Positions 5,302-25,616 of a stretch of 64,000 bases of DNA are shown piece by piece. The stretch is from Pseudo-nitzschia pungens (lineage: Eukaryota > Bacillariophyta > Bacillariophyceae > Bacillariales > Bacillariaceae). The notes under the pieces are model-generated. The model searched no databases. It was not told the origin of the DNA and saw only the letters and a program-made list of their open reading frames with translations. The stretch covers positions 496,001-560,000 of the forward strand of contig CM074767.1 in the NCBI GenBank assembly GCA_037355855.1, read 5' to 3'. The first letter of the stretch is position 1. Each line of letters opens with the position of its first letter. The position numbers and the translations under genes were made by a program.

Positions 5302-7569
5302 ATGGGTCTCAAGGGAAAGTTGATCGGCGATGGTGATCGCTATCGCTATGGTCCGATGTGCATGCCTACCCTCCCCTGGAGAAAGGACAATCCCAAGCTG
5401 AATTTTTATGGCCTAGGTGAGTGAGCGAAGCGACACGAAACGAAGCAAAGAACGACAACGAATGGGTGTATGTGCATCGACGATTCTTGTCGTCCTTGCT
5501 TTCCTGGATGTGTGATTGGATTCTTGTCTCTGACGCGCAACAATTTTTCTCCTCTCTCTTCCTCCCAAACGTCACACGCAACGAAATCAAATTAAATCAA
5601 ATAAAATATTCGATCCAGATGAGGAATTGCCTTTGTTGATGTCCATCTTTATGGGTCTTCAGCACTGTCTCGCCATGGTCGGAGGATTGATTACCCCTCC
5701 ATTGGTCGTCTTCAAGTTTACTGTCTGTGGCTTTGCCGAAGGATTTTGTCCCGAACTTGTCGGGGTGAGTCACGACGGGCGTGTCAATGGTTTGGGTTCG
5801 CATTCCATTGTTGCGTGTCTGTATAGTTTTTTGTTGTTGGGAGTGATCTCACATTTGTCGTCATTTTTTCTATTTGGATGATTCGTTTTTCTTCCATCAA
5901 TCGTTTACCCGTGCAGTATGCCGTCAGCGCAGCCCTGATCACCTCGGGCATTTGCACCATTCTCAACGTTGCCAAGCTCGCAATTCCCTTTTCCGAAAAA
6001 ATTTTTGGGCGGGCTCTCTACCTTGGTTCGGGTGTCCTGAGTGTCATGGGAACCTCCTTCACCTTTCTGCCCATCTACGAGATTGCTATTGCCCAGATGA
6101 AGCGGGACGGAATCGACGGCCGGGAAGCTTATGGAAAGATGCTCGGAACCAACATGGTGTGCTGCCTCCTCGAGCTGGGATTGTCGGTGCTGCCTGCCAA
6201 GCGTCTCCAGAAGATCTTCCCACCACTCGTGACCTCCATCACTGTCATTCTCATCGGGGTTGCCCTCACCGGAACCGGAATGAAGTACTGGGGAGGTGGC
6301 GTGGTTTGCGCTGAGATGGGCTGGAAGTCCCACTCCCAGATCACATCACAGGAAGACCTGAGCTTTGGACCCCCCTTCCCGACTTGTGCCATCGGTGAGA
6401 CCTCCGAATTGTACGGAGCTCCCCAGTACATCGGACTCGGATTCTCGGTTATGGTCTTTTTGATCTTCATCGAGTTGTTTGGAAGCGTCTTCATGAAGAA
6501 CATCAACATCATTCTGGCCCTTTTGTTCGGATACATGATTGCGGGACTCACGGACCTGGACGGGAAAAATTACGTCAACACGGCTAATATCAAGGATGCC
6601 GATCCTATCACCTTTTTGTGGGTAGAGACCTTCCCCTTTGGCTTTTACGCTCCGGCTGTGCTTCCTATGTTGATTGCTTATTTCATTACCACTGTGGAGA
6701 CCGTCGGTGACATCAATGGTAGGTTTTGTCGATTTCTTTTTTTGCATCGGTCTTTTTACACACACGTTGTACTTTGAGACTGACCACGACGTTCACGTCC
6801 ACGTCAACGCCCTTTCAATTGTGTTTTCTGGTCTTTGTTCGCGTTTTCCACAGCCGTTTTTGAGGGATCCGAATTGAAAACTGGAACCGACGAATACAAC
6901 GAGTCCATTCAGGGCGGTCTCTTCGCCGACGGTATCAACTCGTTCTTGGCCAGTTTGTTTACCTCCATGCCCAACACCACCTTTTCCCAGAACAACGGAG
7001 TTATTGCTCTTACCAAGTGCGCTTCCAGACGCGCCGGATATGCCTGTGGCGCCTGGCTGATCTTTTTAGGTGTCTTTGGCAAGGTTGCCGGTACCATCAC
7101 CACAATTCCCGACTGCGTTTTGGGTGGGATGACTATCTTCTTGTTTTCCAACGTTTTGGCCAGTGGAATCAATCTCACCAAGCTGGTAGACCTCGAGAGC
7201 CGCCGTAATCGATTCGTCATGGCCTTTAGTCTTGCTCTGGGTGTGGGTGTGACCGTTTGGCCGTACGCCTTTTTGGACCGCCGCGGATCGCCCTACACGG
7301 CCGCCTTCTGGCCCTGCGCCGACTGCTCCGATGCCATGAAGGGACTCCGCAACGGGGTCAGCATCTTTTTGTCCACAGGGTACTGTATCGGTTCGGCGTC
7401 CGCCATGATGCTCAACGCGATCCTGCCCAACGATGCGGGTTTCGAGTACGGAGAGGCGGCAACCAAGGAAGAGTCCGCCCCCAAGGAGGAGATCGAGGAG
7501 GACAAGGCCGAACCAGACGACAAGAAGGAAGAACCCGACGAAGAGAAGGCTGTGGAGGAAGCACTCTAG
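5302..7569 (+). CDS. NCS2-family purine permease, UapA-like
   Basis: Plasma-membrane nucleobase:cation symporter, most like the fungal xanthine/uric acid transporter UapA. Four exons: 5302-5416, 5619-5764, 5917-6718 and 6854-7569, all with GT-AG borders and matching phases, giving 592 residues. Family marks are GLQH in the first membrane segment, IGSGVLSVMG-type sequence (here LGSGVLSVMG), KIFPPLVT, GTGMKYWGGG, and the substrate-site signature QNNGVIALTK. UapA has R at the last position of that signature, and K is also allowed in the family pattern. The C-terminus is a lysine/glutamate-rich tail of about 40 residues. The start at 5302 (MGLKGKL) fits the family; an in-frame ATG at 5230 would add 24 residues. 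Substrate is inferred as xanthine, urate or a related purine, not proven. The gene runs 3'-to-3' toward the CbiZ-CbiB gene. Confidence 0.92.
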
Positions 7570-7936: not shown

Positions 7937-10907
7937 TTACCGAGACCCATTCGAAATCCATTCCTTCAGGCAACACGCCACGAGTGCCACCAGCAAGGAC
8001 AGGCCACCCGCGAGCTCCGCGACGCGGTGACCGGCTCGAATGTCGCGGGGAGTCGGATCCCTGACGCCAGGGATCGTGTTCCCTAGCGCGTACGAGTACT
8101 CCCCCTTCTTTTCCAGCCGGACCCCGAGAATACCCGCCATGGCCGCCATTGGCCATCCCGCGTTGGGGGAGGAGCACTGGGTGCGGTCCTTCCGGGCCGT
8201 TGCGAGTCCCCTCGCCGCCGAAGCGCTCCCGAGCGCGATCCACGCCGCAAGCACCAGCGCGAGGGCGGTCAACCGGGCCGGGATCAGATTGATCAAGTCG
8301 TCGAATCGGGCCGAGGCCTTTCCGAACCATTCGTACCGTCCCCCTCGGTAACCGATCCGAGAATCGAGCGTGTTTGCGACCCGGTAGCCGAGTGCCCCGA
8401 CGGGTCCCAGAAGAATGTACCAAAACCAGGGAGCCAGCGTGCCGTCGGAGAGATTTTCCTTACCGCCACAGAGAACATAATGTTATCACAAAACAACGGA
8501 ACGAACCAGAGCGATTTGGAACCGAAAACAAACATGCAAATGAAATGATGAGAATCCAAGGTTCCTGTTTCGTTTCGTTTCGTTTCGTTTCGTTTCGCAC
8601 CAAAAATCGAAGAGAAAATGAAGAAAGATTCCAATTGCCCTGCTGGCATTAATTCAGACGTATTGCACCGCACCGCACCGCAACACCCCGCATTTGTTAT
8701 CGACCGAGATCGCGACTCACCGAAAGACTCTCGAGCGTCCCCCCCGCCAGATCCTCCGATCCCAGGTGGGTCGGATCCCGGCTGCAGAGCCAAACCAGCT
8801 GGGACCGTGCCTCGTCGAGCTGGGATCGTTCCAGAAACCGCGCCATTTGCAGCGCAATGGTGCACAGGAGTTGCAGGGAAAATGTCGTCTTGACCAAAAT
8901 CACCTCCAGGAGCCACGCGCCGAAGGCTGCTGCCGACGGGAGAAGGAATACGAATATCCACTGCTGCGATGCCCCGGCGGCCAAGGCAGCAGCAGCAGTA
9001 GCGGATGCCATCTCAACCTCCGCTTCCATCCACTCGGCCGAGTTCAGAAAGCACTGGGCTCCAAAACCAAAGAGGGCAAGGGTTCCGACGAGAAAAAAGA
9101 TTCCTCCAACCCCACCGAGGACCGGGTCCCGAAAGACCCGTTCCGGAATCCAATTGTTGCTAGCCATGCTGATGACGGTACCCGCCAGCACCACGGGGTG
9201 CACCGACAGTGGAGGCTCCGGAAGGCATCTGTTCATCACGTAACATCACATGTGATCAAATCAGATAAAAATACAAGTCGTATTGGTATCGGAACAAAAT
9301 CCGATTGCAAATGCGCAAAATCATTGGAAAAGAAATGGAACGAGAGGAACAGCGACAAGGCAATACGAAAGCCGGACGAAGCCGAGATTGACCGTGTGAG
9401 GGGGAGTCCTTTCTATTTACGAGAGACCTCCGTTAAATCCCTGTGAGATCTATTCCATTCCGTTCCGTTCCACACCCCACCGCCTCTAAAATTACGACAC
9501 GCCACTCCACTCCACTCCACGCCGCATCCCATATCCCATCCCATCCCACACGATTTCGGAGCACTCACCGATCCCACACAAATGCCGCCAGCAACACCGT
9601 CGCCGACCGCGGGAGTGCAAGCCATTGCCCCGCGCCGCAATAGGCCACCAGGACGACGCCCCCCCACCCCAGCAGCACCACCGAACGCGGCGACGCCGGC
9701 ATCGGATCCATCGGACGCGGGGGGACGCACGGCCGGGCCCCCTTGCGCACCAGGTGCCACAGCGAGCGCGTTGCCCTCGAGAGGTGGTAGCGGGCGACCG
9801 TCCCGTGCCGGTGCTCCAGGTTGCGACCAATGGCTGCTCGGGTCGCCTCGCGGACGGCCTGGCCGATGAGCTCCGCCAGGAGGCAGTGCTTTCCGGCGTA
9901 TTTCAGGACCGGCGGTTTCTTGGAGGTTGCCTTTGCGCCAGATGTAGATTTTGTTGCAACGACAATTGCGGTTGTGGTGTTGCCGATTCTTTCCTTCTCG
10001 CGGTCCTTTTCCTTGTCGTTTTCGCTCCGGGCACGCTTGTACGACTTGGACGGAGCCAGCAGCACCAGGCAGTCCGTCCCGGTCCCCTGCGCCAGCTCGC
10101 TTGCGTTCTTGGCGCACGGGAGTTGGAATTCCGCGCAGGCGCCGCACTTGGCCTCCACGGCGATGGCGTAGGCCTCGATCAGGGCCGTCTCCGACAGCGG
10201 GGCACCCTGGACGATCAGAATGGTGTTGATGGTCCCCGGCGGTGGCGCGGTGGAAGTTGAGGTTGTGGTCGTGGTTATAGCCGTGGTCGTGGTTGCGGTT
10301 GCAGCCGGCAGCATCCCGAAAAAGTCGGCGTCGGCCCCCGCCGCGCGTGCGTTGGAAATCCCGGCCGTGACGATGGCGTCGACGAAGATGCCCCCCGCCG
10401 ACCGGCTTGCCGTCCGGAGGGAGCGCATGGACGCCGCCGTGAGGAGACCGACGGTGGAGGATTCGTCGAGGCAAGGGGCGGGGCCGGGGGAGGCGCCGGA
10501 GCCGGAGCCACTGTCACTCCCACTGTTGCTGTTGCTGCCACCATCACCATCACCATCACCATCACCGCCATTGTTCGCCGGCGCTTTTTTTTCTCTGGCA
10601 ATGGCGGTCCGGAGCAGGTCTCTCGGCTCGGGGTTCCTTCCGTCGTAGGTGTGCGGGACCTTGTAGTTGAGAACGGCGACCTTTGTGTTCGACCGAAAGG
10701 AGCGCATCCCGCCCTTCCAGATGGCCGACGAAATGGCGTTCCAGCCGTCGGTGGGCGTGCCGGTGGCGTCCGAGGCGTCCATGCGAGCTATTCCGTCGGG
10801 GAGCTCGATCCTGGCCCGGTGCTCGTCAACGGTGACCAGGGCTCCGCTCGGGAGGGAGATGATGTTCTGTGCATTGTCGTCGTCGTCGTCGTCGATGTTG
10901 TTGTTGT

Positions 10908-10939
<32 letters not shown>

Positions 10940-10959
10940 TCGGTTCCGGAAGTGCTCAT
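7937..10959 (-). CDS. Fusion of adenosylcobinamide amidohydrolase (CbiZ) and cobinamide-phosphate synthase (CbiB/CobD)
   Basis: Three exons on the minus strand: 10959-9569, 9228-8721 and 8458-7937, joined in phases 2 and 0, giving 806 residues. Residues about 35-370 are CbiZ: GLLTAAS near 170, VTAGISNARAAG near 196, PGTINTILIV near 239, EAKCGAC near 268, GTGTDCLVL near 292 and YAGKHCLLAELIGQAV near 353. Residues about 425-806 are CbiB, a multi-span membrane enzyme: PEPPLSVHPVVLAG, VKTTFSLQLL, CSRDPTHLG, ESLSENLSDG, YRVANTLDS, FDDLINLIPARLTAL and SPNAGWPMAAMAG. Exon 1 reads without a stop from CbiZ into the first CbiB membrane segment, so the fusion does not depend on a splice call. In bacteria and archaea CbiZ hydrolyses adenosylcobinamide to adenosylcobyric acid, and CbiB attaches aminopropanol (phosphate) to that acid. 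I infer a corrinoid salvage or remodelling role. The Asn/Asp-rich start shows no targeting peptide. Introns indicate a domesticated nuclear gene, possibly of prokaryotic origin. Confidence 0.92.
8459..8720 (-). other. Intron 2 of the CbiZ-CbiB gene
   Basis: Donor GTGAGT and acceptor TAAG on the minus strand. Splicing joins ESLS to ENLSDG in phase 0 and restores the expected CbiB motif. The intron contains a (GTTTC)n microsatellite at about 8567-8597 and a (CCGCA)n tract near 8666. Confidence 0.85.
9229..9568 (-). other. Intron 1 of the CbiZ-CbiB gene
   Basis: Donor GTGAGT and acceptor ACAG on the minus strand, phase 2. Splicing joins FVWDR to CLPEPP inside the first conserved CbiB segment. 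It contains (CCACT)n and (CCCAT)n pentanucleotide tracts near 9502-9549. Confidence 0.85.
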
Positions 10960-21674: not shown

Positions 21675-22751
21675 TCTATCACTGCCATTCTCCTTACGTC
21701 TCTTCGGTTCGACACCACGAATGAGCTGGTAGGTTTCTGGCAAAACGGTTTTGTTGGATGGGATTGAGGAACAGTAGAGACAAGCTTCGGCATTCTTGTC
21801 CCTTCTTACCGTTGATATACAAACAATAGAGATGGCACTCGTACTCGTAAGAGTAAAGTACTAGTACATGGTAGGCGAAAAATCTTCCGAAAATTCGTCA
21901 CAGCACATCACCGATCGGATGTGGCACGGAAGGCAGTCACAATTCAGAAAAATAGAACCTTTCTGCCCACAGAAGAAAAAGTGTACGGGAAACGAATTAT
22001 TTTGGCTAATATTAGAGATATATAAACGATTACAAGTGAAATGTTTACCGTAGGTTCCAGAGAATGAGCTTAAGTAATTTTCATCACAGTATGTTACTTC
22101 TACCGGTAAGGTTACAGTAACTTACCGTACTTCGTAAACCTTAAGATTACGAAGTACTGTAAGTCTTACTGTACCGTAACCTTGCTTCATATGTTGTACC
22201 AAGCATGCAACGATCGGTGATGGCCAGACGAGCTGAGTTGAAAGCTTGCTTTGTCTTTCTCATGACATCATCGCCTCGTCTGCTTCTCTGAAGCCTGAGT
22301 TGTATGTTCTTCGTGCTCGCCGACCGTACAAGAAGTGGTATGCATGACGAAAAACTGCCTCCCGTAGAATGTGAAGGACAGTGAATGGTGCCGTACGCAC
22401 TTGTACGACATCACGTATCACGTAAATCACGTAAAAACATTGGCAGTACGACGAACATCTCCCCTGAACTTTACAACATCGAAGACGACGTCCTGCATCA
22501 TCTCATCAAGAAAGCACAAAGAGAGCACCGTCCATCTATATGCTACACCGAAAAGAAGTCACATTCTGTTCACAAAAGTAGCGGCATATTGTGAGACCCA
22601 TTCTACATAGGAGTAGGAAATCGAAGATCCAACTCCAAATTTGGGAAAAACCAAGTTGAGTTCGACGGTTTACGTATCTTTTCCAAAGAAACTCGAACCT
22701 TCTACAATCTTCATATTATAGCATCGGTATCCGAATTGCACAGTAACAACA
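21675..22751. other. Divergent spacer with promoter-type words
   Basis: The spacer lies between the divergent deformylase-like and DHH genes. A dense run of TAAGGTTAC, GTAACTTAC and TTACGAAGTA words lies at 22095-22195. The short ORFs here look accidental. Confidence 0.55.
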
Positions 22752-25616
22752 ATGACGAACAAAACAACAAGGATACGAAGAAGAAATGGTGAAACGTGGA
22801 GTGCCTCTTTGGGAGGCGCTCTGTTTCTGGCTATTTCATCCACAACAAGCATGATGAGCATCACTGCTTTCCCGATCCAACACCCGCTATCACATTCCTT
22901 GATCACAACAACACATCCAACAACATCGGAGCTAAACTATCACGGGAAGAGACACAAACAAAATCGGCAAAGCTTTGCTGGGATATTCGGTAGGTCTACC
23001 TTCTTGATGGCCGAGGCAGAGCCCGGAACGAATGGCGATGGGGGACTGGGGCACATTAAATCTTCTATTGCTGCTTCGATCGATTCTGCGGGTATTGCCT
23101 CTTTGGATCCGGAATACCAAAAGTACAAGGAGAGCATGCGTCGGGTCGAGGAGGAAGAAGACGAAGCGTTTTTTAAGGATTTTGTCAACAGCGAATTCAC
23201 TCCTCTGATGGAACGAGATGCTACGTCTTCGATGGTAGTTCCTGCCACTCCCATACCGAAACCAACCCCCGCGAAAGAAAAAGAACGAATGATCGCCGAC
23301 GAGAAAAAGGAAGGAGAGGCAGAAAAAGAGAGGCAGCTGCAAAAACCGGCTGTTCGACCCGCGGTTTCCGACACTTCCGTTCACCTCAGAGCGTTGGACG
23401 GATTCAACGTGGTCCTCACCCACTGCACCGCAGACTTTGATTCGCTGGCGAGTGCCGTGGGACTTGCCAAGCTCTGGACCAACACCAACAAACCGGACGA
23501 TAGTTCTGACGGGAAGAATGGCGACGCCGAAGACGAAGGCTATGACAGTGCCTTTGACAATTACCCAACTTTTGTGGTGCTTCCCCGCGGCGCCCATCCC
23601 GCGGTACAACGGTTTTTGGCGCTCCACAAACACTTGTTCCCCATTCGGTCCCTCAAATCGCTTCCGAGTGATCTGTCTAAGCTTCACCGATTGGCCCTGG
23701 TCGATGCACAGCGGAAGGAACGCATCGGTCCTGCCGATGTCTTGTTGCAGCACGCCGATCGGGTCACCGTTGTGGACCACCACGTGGACCAGGACTCGGA
23801 CATTCCGGGAATTACGGATTATGTGGTCGATCAGGTGGGATCCGTCTCGACTCTCATCGTCGAGCGCCTCATGAAACAACAGGAGAAGCAGCTCGAGGCC
23901 CAGCTGGAATCCTCGTCGTCACCGATCAATACCCTCACGGAGGCAGAGGCTACGCTGCTGGCCCTGGGCATCCACGCCGACACGGGAAGTCTCTGTTTCG
24001 ATTCGACCACACCACGGGACGCCTCCGCCCTTGCCTGGGTCATGGCCCAGGGTGCCAGCCAGATTGCCATTGCGGAGCACGCTCAAGCCTCGCTGAGCCC
24101 CGAGCAACAAAAGGTGCTGACGCAGGCCCTGGTCAACACGAATTCCACCGTTGCCCACGGCGTCACTATTTCCACCGTGTTGCTGACCGCCGACGGATTC
24201 ATCAATGGGCTGGCCGCCGTCACGCAGGATGCCCTCGAACTCAGCTCGGCGGATGTCTTTTTGCTGGGAGTCGTGTACGAACCCAAGTCGGGCCGAAAGA
24301 GCAAGGGGTCCCGTGCACCGGGAAACAATGTCAAATCGAAGCTGCTCATGACGGGAACGGCCAGGGCCGAAGCGAAGGCAAAGGCCGAAGCCGAAGCAAA
24401 AGCGAAGGAAACGGCCTCCTTCCCAATGAAGGCATTGTCTCCGAGCGGTTTGTACAAATCGGAGCTCACCGTGGCGTTGGAGGAGAAGCGCCTGGCCGAG
24501 GAACGCCTGAGGGCTTCCTTTGACAAGAAGGACCTGGATGGCGATGGCTTTATCGATCAAAAAGAGCTAACGGCTGCTCTGATCGCATCGGGGATCGTTG
24601 CCACGGAAGAAACGGTCCGCGGTCTCATGGAATCCATCGACACCAACAAGGATGGTGTGGTCGACTTTGACGAATTCGTAGTCTTTGCCAGCACCGTCAG
24701 GACCATGACTCAAACCCAGCAGCAGACCGATTCCAATGCGACCTCAGTAGCAGCGGCACCGTCGCCTCCCAGCACCCTCATCATCATCGGCCGAGCCAAG
24801 CCCGGTGTCAACATGAAATCCGTCAAGCTGGGCAAGCTCCTGGAAAAGTACGGCGGTGGCGGCCACCCCAAGGCGGCTTCCGCGACGGTCCGCCTGAACG
24901 ACGAATCGGAGGCCGCGGACATCATGTCCGAGTTGGTCGACGAGCTCATCGATACGAGCCTGCGGGAGCAATCCACCGTTGGGGATTTCATGACGTCTCC
25001 CGTCCTGAGCGTCAAGTCGGAAATGTCGGAGCACCAGGTGGAAGATCTCTTTACGCGGTACGACGTCCGGGCCCTCCCGGTGGTGAACGAAGAAAACGAG
25101 GTCATCGGTCTGGTAACGTACAAGGAGGTCGCGGCCGCCAAGCAACGCATGTGGAACAAGGAACAAAAGCGGCTCCGGCAGGAACAACAACGAAAGGAGC
25201 AGGGCGGAAAGCAAAAGAACAAGAAGAAAAAGGGCAAGAACAACGATGACGACGAGAACCTCTCACCGGAAGAACTGGAACAAAAGAGGAAGCAGCAGAA
25301 GATCATCGAGGCAAAGCGACGGCGGGGACCCACCGTCAAGGCCTGGATGAAGCAGCACATCAAGACGGTCGAGGCCAGCCTGACCATGGCCGAGGTGGAG
25401 GCCATTCTGCTGGAAAACGACGTGGGGTGCATCCCCGTGGTCCAGGACGGAACCAAGAAGCTGGTGGGGATGGTGACCCGGACCGACCTGTTGCGGCAGC
25501 ACCGATATTATCCCTCGCTACACTACAACAACAAGGGCATGAGCGATTCGATCGCCTCCCGGAAACCCATCATCGCTCTGCGACGAAAACTCAAGCAGTT
25601 TGATCTCGACGAGTAA
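22752..25616 (+). CDS. Plastid-targeted DHH phosphoesterase with EF-hand insertion and CBS pair
   Basis: 954 residues, single exon. The N-terminus is a signal peptide ending ITAFPIQ, which matches the diatom plastid-import cleavage style. The DHH domain begins near residue 212 (VVLTHCTADFDSLASA) and has VDHHVD near 341 and a GIHADTG segment. A calcium-binding EF-hand pair follows near 589-640 (DLDGDGFIDQKEL and DTNKDGVVDFDEF). The DHHA1 substrate domain comes after it (GRAKPGVNMKSV near 680, GGGGHPKAAS near 701). Two CBS repeats lie near 744-800 and 863-925, separated by a Lys-rich linker. DHH-DHHA1 proteins hydrolyse phosphodiester bonds in short nucleic acids or cyclic dinucleotides. DHH plus CBS without a nucleotidyltransferase recalls bacterial CCA-enzyme relatives. 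I infer regulation by Ca2+ and adenine nucleotides. A (CT)n run follows the stop codon. Confidence 0.9.
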   Translation: MTNKTTRIRRRNGETWSASLGGALFLAISSTTSMMSITAFPIQHPLSHSLITTTHPTTSELNYHGKRHKQNRQSFAGIFGRSTFLMAEAEPGTNGDGGLGHIKSSIAASIDSAGIASLDPEYQKYKESMRRVEEEEDEAFFKDFVNSEFTPLMERDATSSMVVPATPIPKPTPAKEKERMIADEKKEGEAEKERQLQKPAVRPAVSDTSVHLRALDGFNVVLTHCTADFDSLASAVGLAKLWTNTNKPDDSSDGKNGDAEDEGYDSAFDNYPTFVVLPRGAHPAVQRFLALHKHLFPIRSLKSLPSDLSKLHRLALVDAQRKERIGPADVLLQHADRVTVVDHHVDQDSDIPGITDYVVDQVGSVSTLIVERLMKQQEKQLEAQLESSSSPINTLTEAEATLLALGIHADTGSLCFDSTTPRDASALAWVMAQGASQIAIAEHAQASLSPEQQKVLTQALVNTNSTVAHGVTISTVLLTADGFINGLAAVTQDALELSSADVFLLGVVYEPKSGRKSKGSRAPGNNVKSKLLMTGTARAEAKAKAEAEAKAKETASFPMKALSPSGLYKSELTVALEEKRLAEERLRASFDKKDLDGDGFIDQKELTAALIASGIVATEETVRGLMESIDTNKDGVVDFDEFVVFASTVRTMTQTQQQTDSNATSVAAAPSPPSTLIIIGRAKPGVNMKSVKLGKLLEKYGGGGHPKAASATVRLNDESEAADIMSELVDELIDTSLREQSTVGDFMTSPVLSVKSEMSEHQVEDLFTRYDVRALPVVNEENEVIGLVTYKEVAAAKQRMWNKEQKRLRQEQQRKEQGGKQKNKKKKGKNNDDDENLSPEELEQKRKQQKIIEAKRRRGPTVKAWMKQHIKTVEASLTMAEVEAILLENDVGCIPVVQDGTKKLVGMVTRTDLLRQHRYYPSLHYNNKGMSDSIASRKPIIALRRKLKQFDLDE

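Follow-up and report, generated by a model that had tools for sequence, protein, structure and literature searches.

What would a diatom do with one enzyme that strips the linker from a corrinoid and another that puts a linker back, and why would it hold the two in a single chain? The question is raised by a gene on the reverse strand (7937..10959) of a 64,000-nucleotide stretch of the Pseudo-nitzschia pungens genome (GenBank assembly GCA_037355855.1, contig CM074767.1, positions 496,001 to 560,000; hereafter the window), whose product joins a CbiZ domain to a CbiB domain. Our analysis, which rests on sequence comparison, suggests that P. pungens is probably a B12-requiring diatom with corrinoid salvage or remodelling, in which this nuclear, spliced, membrane-bound and bifunctional protein would provide the linker-exchange step.

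The gene runs from ATG to a TAA stop in three exons, and the spliced open reading frame (ORF) encodes 806 amino acids. Exon 1 (9569..10959) carries the CbiZ domain, a proline-rich linker and the first CbiB segment, and ends in the residues WDR; exon 2 (8721..9228) carries the middle part of CbiB; and exon 3 (7937..8458) carries the carboxy-terminal part with ENLSDG, NTLDS, DDLINLIPAR and SPNAGWPM, followed by the stop. The two introns, which like the exons lie on the minus strand, are both of the GT-AG type and measure 340 nucleotides (intron 1, 9229..9568, phase 2) and 262 nucleotides (intron 2, 8459..8720, phase 0). An earlier note on this DNA had claimed a CbiZ-CbiB fusion in one 806-residue product spread over two introns, and the spliced ORF and the Pfam scores given below confirm it. 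If intron 1 is retained, the frame reads ...GAT CG|G TGA, that is, WDR and then an immediate stop; if intron 2 is retained, LESLS reads on into V-S. Of 213 database proteins compared, ten end exactly at WDR and eight end within 40 residues of LESLSV; because they end there, both intron borders must also be present in relatives, in line with the conserved-phase introns of which the same note had spoken.

The CbiZ domain (PF01955) matches residues 72-307 of the window protein (10039..10746, minus strand) at 119 bits, compared with a Pfam gathering score of 27. The domain identity claimed earlier thus stands, while the description 'complete-looking' needs refining, since low-complexity inserts interrupt the domain. 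In the structure model of exon 1 the regions of low confidence are approximately residues 1-30, 131-160, 221-240 and 311-350. The window protein keeps 25 of the 29 columns conserved across prokaryotic CbiZ, including S77, T174, T198, G200, N203, G242, T243, N245, E269, K271, T293 and D296; the four that differ are I266, C275, Q291 and A362. By domain identity, the CbiZ half would be an adenosylcobinamide amidohydrolase.

The CbiB half is placed by profile as well, which excludes the profile failure that the earlier note had named as a possible refutation. The CobD_Cbib family (PF03186) matches residues 456-777 at 248.7 bits (gathering score 34.4), and the NCBIfam model TIGR00380 is passed at 188.2 bits (cut-off 165.9). 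The conserved blocks named earlier (ENLSDG, NTLDS, DDLINLIPARL and PNAGWPMAAMAG) are all found in the spliced protein, which keeps 49 of the 56 columns that do not vary among five bacterial CbiB sequences and differs at C465, P467, S581, S599, S633, R667 and K751. A simple hydropathy count gives five hydrophobic segments in this half, and it is helical in the structure model of a homologue; together with the conserved motifs, this suggests a polytopic membrane protein. That model, made for a homologous fusion and not for the window protein, has a predicted local distance difference test score (pLDDT) of 92 and a predicted template modelling score (pTM) of 0.84. Sequence searches returned no solved structure for either half, three weak hits fall within residues 46-160, and the ranked list of the fold comparison held no clear match for the CbiB half. 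Between the two domains lies a proline-rich linker (residues 406-424, 9688..9744, minus strand), which reads GARPCVPPRPMDPMP in the window protein; G407, P410, P413, P416 and P421 are invariant in all 17 aligned rows, and GARPC occurs in 10 of the 17.

The columns that differ, four of 29 in CbiZ and seven of 56 in CbiB, raise the alternative that one half has lost its catalytic role and anchors the other in the membrane or binds corrinoids for it. The four deviant CbiZ letters, however, are the commonest letters in diatoms at their positions (found in 10 or 11 of the 16 rows), and otherwise neither half has lost its strongly conserved motifs, so that we consider the loss of either activity improbable.

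Far from being an isolated case, the fusion is widely distributed among diatoms. When 5.8 billion proteins were searched, 90 matched, and 87 of these carry both domains by our own profiles (86 by precomputed Pfam), always with CbiZ before CbiB; other diatoms thus share the fusion, which the earlier note had suggested looking for in them. Most of the database rows are environmental records without a name, for which 'diatom' is read from similarity, and the named sources of fusion-type matches are all diatoms: Pseudo-nitzschia australis, Thalassiosira sp. AJA248-18, T. profunda, three Skeletonema, Odontella aurita, Seminavis robusta, Nitzschia inconspicua, a metagenome-assembled genome (MAG) of Bacillariaceae and Amphora coffeaeformis. 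A protein labelled Psemu1, which we take to be the fusion protein of Pseudo-nitzschia multiseries, has 64% identity with the window protein over residues 23-633, and a record labelled CCRYP, of the CbiZ side, is presumably from Cyclotella cryptica. Within the P. pungens genome (66.9 Mb in 28 contigs) the CbiZ and CbiB profiles match this locus only.

Both domains are bacterial in type, which invites the objection that the gene is a bacterial contaminant or a join made in assembly. We rejected this candidate and give it practically no chance: the gene has introns, it lies on a contig of 3.08 Mb, a NAT10-type acetyltransferase gene stands in the same window, all named relatives of the fusion are diatoms, and none of the bacterial CbiB sequences found exceeds 43% identity with the window protein. 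The nuclear location claimed before therefore holds, and the contamination that it had named as a possible refutation is excluded. A prokaryotic CbiZ-CbiB fusion as source was not seen among 100 matches; scoring was confined to the 7998 candidates with the most words in common, so that this is no proof of absence. Of the 100, 98 score at least 344 bits and are fusions or CbiZ-side proteins resembling exon 1, which leaves one CbiB from Nitratidesulfovibrio (134 bits) and one CbiZ from Bathyarchaeia (87 bits), each without the other domain. One CbiB-profile scan of viral contigs showed no relative that would point to viral carriage.

Do the two halves work as one protein? They might instead work apart, if retention of intron 1 gave a CbiZ-only protein or if CbiZ cut itself before Thr243, in which case the fusion would make two products and there would be no channel between them. 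Two of the ten proteins that end at WDR are linked to transcripts and correspond to a CbiZ-only product. P0130 comes from an MMETSP transcriptome, and for P0106 (CCRYP_005893-RB) we assume transcript support from the format of its annotation string. These two give a hint of intron-1 retention; the remaining eight could stem from gene prediction on DNA that still contains the intron. As to self-cleavage, fold comparison places the CbiZ half among the DmpA/OAT-fold amidohydrolases. Enzymes of this fold are known to cleave themselves and thereby to expose a serine or threonine nucleophile. G242-T243 is invariant in all 42 aligned rows, and in the exon-1 model T243 sits directly before the strand 244-252, after a low-confidence loop, which makes Thr243 a candidate, and only a candidate, for the self-cleavage nucleophile. 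A cut at this position, however, would leave the remainder of CbiZ still joined to CbiB, and among 110 database proteins tested, 74 have CbiZ and an almost entire CbiB on a single chain. In addition, a full-length fusion occurs in a transcriptome-derived record of Odontella aurita (P0027, 701 amino acids). The single transcript assumed earlier is thus supported by this record and called into question by the two that stop at the exon-1 border, and we regard separate working of the halves as rather unlikely.

Partner genes, which the earlier note had suggested looking for, are present in the same genome. A 13-kb stretch of contig C2 holds a CobU gene (C2:1340240-1341402, plus strand; loci L005, L006 and L008; 341 amino acids when spliced) and a gene in which CobS and CobT are fused (C2:1353528-1351087, minus strand; loci L004, L007 and L010; 778 amino acids when spliced, with one intron of 105 nucleotides). 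CobS (142.4 bits), CobT (295.6 bits) and CobU (160.4 bits) all pass their Pfam gathering scores. Contig C9 adds CobQ, the cobyric acid synthase (C9:3182245-3184504, plus strand; loci L022 and L032; four exons), which passes the NF001989 model at 294 bits (cut-off 273). Two adenosyltransferase matches exceed their cut-off and MetH is present, whereas a search of the genome for MetE gave no match; this fits passages of a published account (PMC9723598), in which the Pseudo-nitzschia examined are without MetE and need B12.

CobQ was unexpected and raised the possibility of de novo B12 synthesis, which we rejected because the TP_methylase profile detects nothing beyond Dph5 and one methylase of the siroheme type. 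Its three matches in the genome fall in two genes, one of them Dph5 (301.6 bits, over cut-off); the first part of the other scores 116.7 bits as siroheme synthase and 106.9 bits as uroporphyrinogen-III methylase, both under cut-off. No corrin-ring methylase set was seen in this search, so the corrin ring is probably not made in this diatom and the usual substrate of CobQ is probably not home-made. A role in the repair of corrinoids that have lost amides would fit CobQ, or it may have another role. No CobB was seen either: the two GATase_3 matches in the genome are CobQ and a gene that we take to be HisH-HisF.

These genes allow a linker-exchange pathway to be proposed. An imported corrinoid would be adenosylated by the products of the adenosyltransferase genes, and CbiZ would then hydrolyse the amide bond by which the aminopropanol linker is attached, giving adenosylcobyric acid. 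The substrate of this step could be pseudocobalamin, another cobamide with the wrong base, or cobinamide. CbiB would add fresh aminopropanol phosphate to the adenosylcobyric acid, possibly after a local hand-over within the protein, to give adenosylcobinamide phosphate. CobU would convert cobinamide phosphate to cobinamide-GDP, CobT would make alpha-ribazole phosphate, and CobS would join the two; a phosphatase would finish the cobalamin, which MetH would use.

Several results weigh against this reading. CbiB misses two of its NCBIfam cut-offs (NF002281, 222.6 vs 273; NF002276, 175 vs 381), and equivalog cut-offs, which are trained on prokaryotes, are missed by CobS (TIGR00317, 86.2 vs 110), CobT (TIGR03160, 292.9 vs 319.3) and CobU (NF004469, 146.2 vs 161); CobQ likewise falls short of TIGR00313 (202.6 vs 309.9). 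The CobC model gives 17 matches, the best at 85.7 bits against a cut-off of 162.9. The CbiB domain also requires a supply of aminopropanol phosphate. For BluB the best matches reach 42.2 and 35.6 bits against a cut-off of 150, in an exon-by-exon search that may miss a split gene, while excerpts of a 2025 diatom genome paper (PMC12803021, citing Vancaester 2020) place bluB in F. cylindrus, P. multistriata and P. multiseries. In the P. pungens genome bluB was either lost or missed by our search, and dimethylbenzimidazole from outside would also serve.

The substrate is where the remodelling scheme meets its closest competitor. Cobinamide or damaged corrinoids would fit as substrate as well as pseudocobalamin, and it is possible, although we hold it doubtful, that the pathway is one of salvage without base exchange, in which CbiZ, as in the archaeal type, acts only on adenosylcobinamide, CobQ may re-amidate corrinoids short of side-chain amides, and pseudocobalamin is not a substrate. 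The presence of CobQ in a genome with so few TP_methylase genes speaks for such salvage, and Vancaester 2020 is said to favour scavenging and repair as well, whereas the presence of CobT, the base-activating enzyme, speaks against it. So does the CbiZ tree of 109 rows, in which all 22 diatom rows fall together (support 100/98) and their group stands, with moderate support (96/69), beside L018 (Deltaproteobacteria MAG J125, labelled Myxococcota) and P0182, and not beside the Methanobacterium CbiZ P0133. The root of this tree is the midpoint, and no experimentally studied CbiZ is knowingly among its rows.

The same tree bears on where the two domains came from. A genome scan for CbiB with two peptide patterns gave four loci only, all bacterial. 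In one of them, L018, cbiB and a CbiZ ORF are adjacent on the same strand, in the order cbiB then cbiZ, and its CbiB is the best match for the diatom protein P0034 (42%) and is 40% identical to the window protein. The window protein has more in common with the CbiB of a second Myxococcota MAG, L019 (43% identity), and the nearest Myxococcota locus thus changes with the diatom query. No CbiZ was seen in the other three bacterial CbiB loci, of which L019 covers 8.8 kb. A myxococcotal donor is a plausible candidate.

More speculatively, diatoms may have condensed the bacterial nucleotide-loop pathway to a handful of nuclear fusion proteins (CbiZ-CbiB, CobU-DUF4346 and CobS-CobT) that convert cyanobacterial pseudocobalamin and damaged corrinoids to cobalamin. 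CbiZ-CbiB would be the entry point that strips and re-arms the corrinoid, Thr243 would be a self-exposed nucleophile, and intron-1 retention would switch between full remodelling and stripping alone; we offer this wider scheme tentatively, as an idea that may well not hold. Its setting is outlined in one paper (PMC4850488), by which more than half of microalgal species require B12, and the dominant marine cyanobacteria produce pseudocobalamin, which algae use poorly. The CbiZ-CbiB fusion may help algae to turn B12 look-alikes into usable B12. A widespread diatom protein with both cbiZ and cbiB, in a genome that has CobU, CobS-CobT, CobQ and MetH and gave no match to MetE, provides named genes for knockout, and the fusion could serve as a presence/absence marker for B12-requiring diatoms that could live on pseudocobalamin.

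Some further features of the two regions were observed. The CobU protein ends in a PterinBD-DUF4346 domain (64.5 bits), which might have been added to bind a corrinoid or a pterin; this part shows a weak likeness to a dihydropteroate-synthase-like model (25.1 bits) and to the last part of a model for MtrA-type methyltransferases (23.1 bits). The interval between CobU and CobS-CobT (C2:1342315-1350501; L008 and L009) contains, by eye, two long retroelement-like ORFs and a probable membrane protein of 681 amino acids that has no Pfam match at 0.01 and is a possible corrinoid transporter. In the window, a xanthine/uracil-permease-type gene (5827-7566, plus strand) lies past the 3' end of the fusion gene on the opposite strand, as two adjacent ORFs with perhaps an intron, and an ORF of 964 amino acids (22722-25613, plus strand) contains DHH/DHHA1, a pair of EF-hands and two CBS stretches, its best NCBIfam match being an A-adding tRNA nucleotidyltransferase (132.5 bits vs a cut-off of 1440).

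How does the diatom protein compare with known systems? Late cobalamin pathway genes in diatoms are already known and are not new. Diatoms are said, in work by Vancaester from 2020, to have acquired five consecutive late cobalamin genes horizontally, with a role in scavenging or repair. We found no account of a CbiZ-CbiB or CobS-CobT fusion in the literature searched, which did not cover that work, and 'unreported' is accordingly a weak claim. The P. pungens genes are like those described in parts of the 2025 paper (PMC12803021) in being late cobalamin genes of the same lineage; there CobU is a horizontal transfer in several diatoms, and transferred cobalamin genes give F. cylindrus a scavenging capability. 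In Chlamydomonas and Pavlova, remodelling of pseudocobalamin with dimethylbenzimidazole has been tied to CobT, CobS and CobC, and neither cbiZ nor cbiB was in any algal genome analysed, as stated in extracts of the same study (Helliwell 2016, PMC4850488); P. pungens is like these algae in having CobT and CobS, and unlike them in that cbiZ and cbiB are both present and fused. Remodelling by the algal hosts of cyanobacterial endosymbionts is raised as a possibility in portions of a 2026 paper (PMC12903740).

At the level of the domains, the CbiZ half is like the family PF01955 in its conserved columns and unlike it in its long low-complexity inserts and its fusion to CbiB, while the CbiB half passes the cut-offs of both PF03186 and TIGR00380 and is unlike other CbiB/CobD proteins in that CbiZ stands in front of it, followed by a conserved linker rich in proline. 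Fusions of CbiZ to other domains exist in prokaryotes, where database matches include proteins with CbiZ and PF00005 or PF04608. CbiS of Methanopyrus is a CbiZ-CobZ fusion. The diatom protein resembles it in that CbiZ is joined to another domain and differs in that the partner is CbiB; the CbiS profile (NF038002) gives 57.2 bits against a cut-off of 250, and matches the CbiZ part only. MAG J125 (L018) brings the same two enzymes together as neighbours, unlike the diatom gene in that they are separate ORFs, and in the order opposite to that of the fusion.

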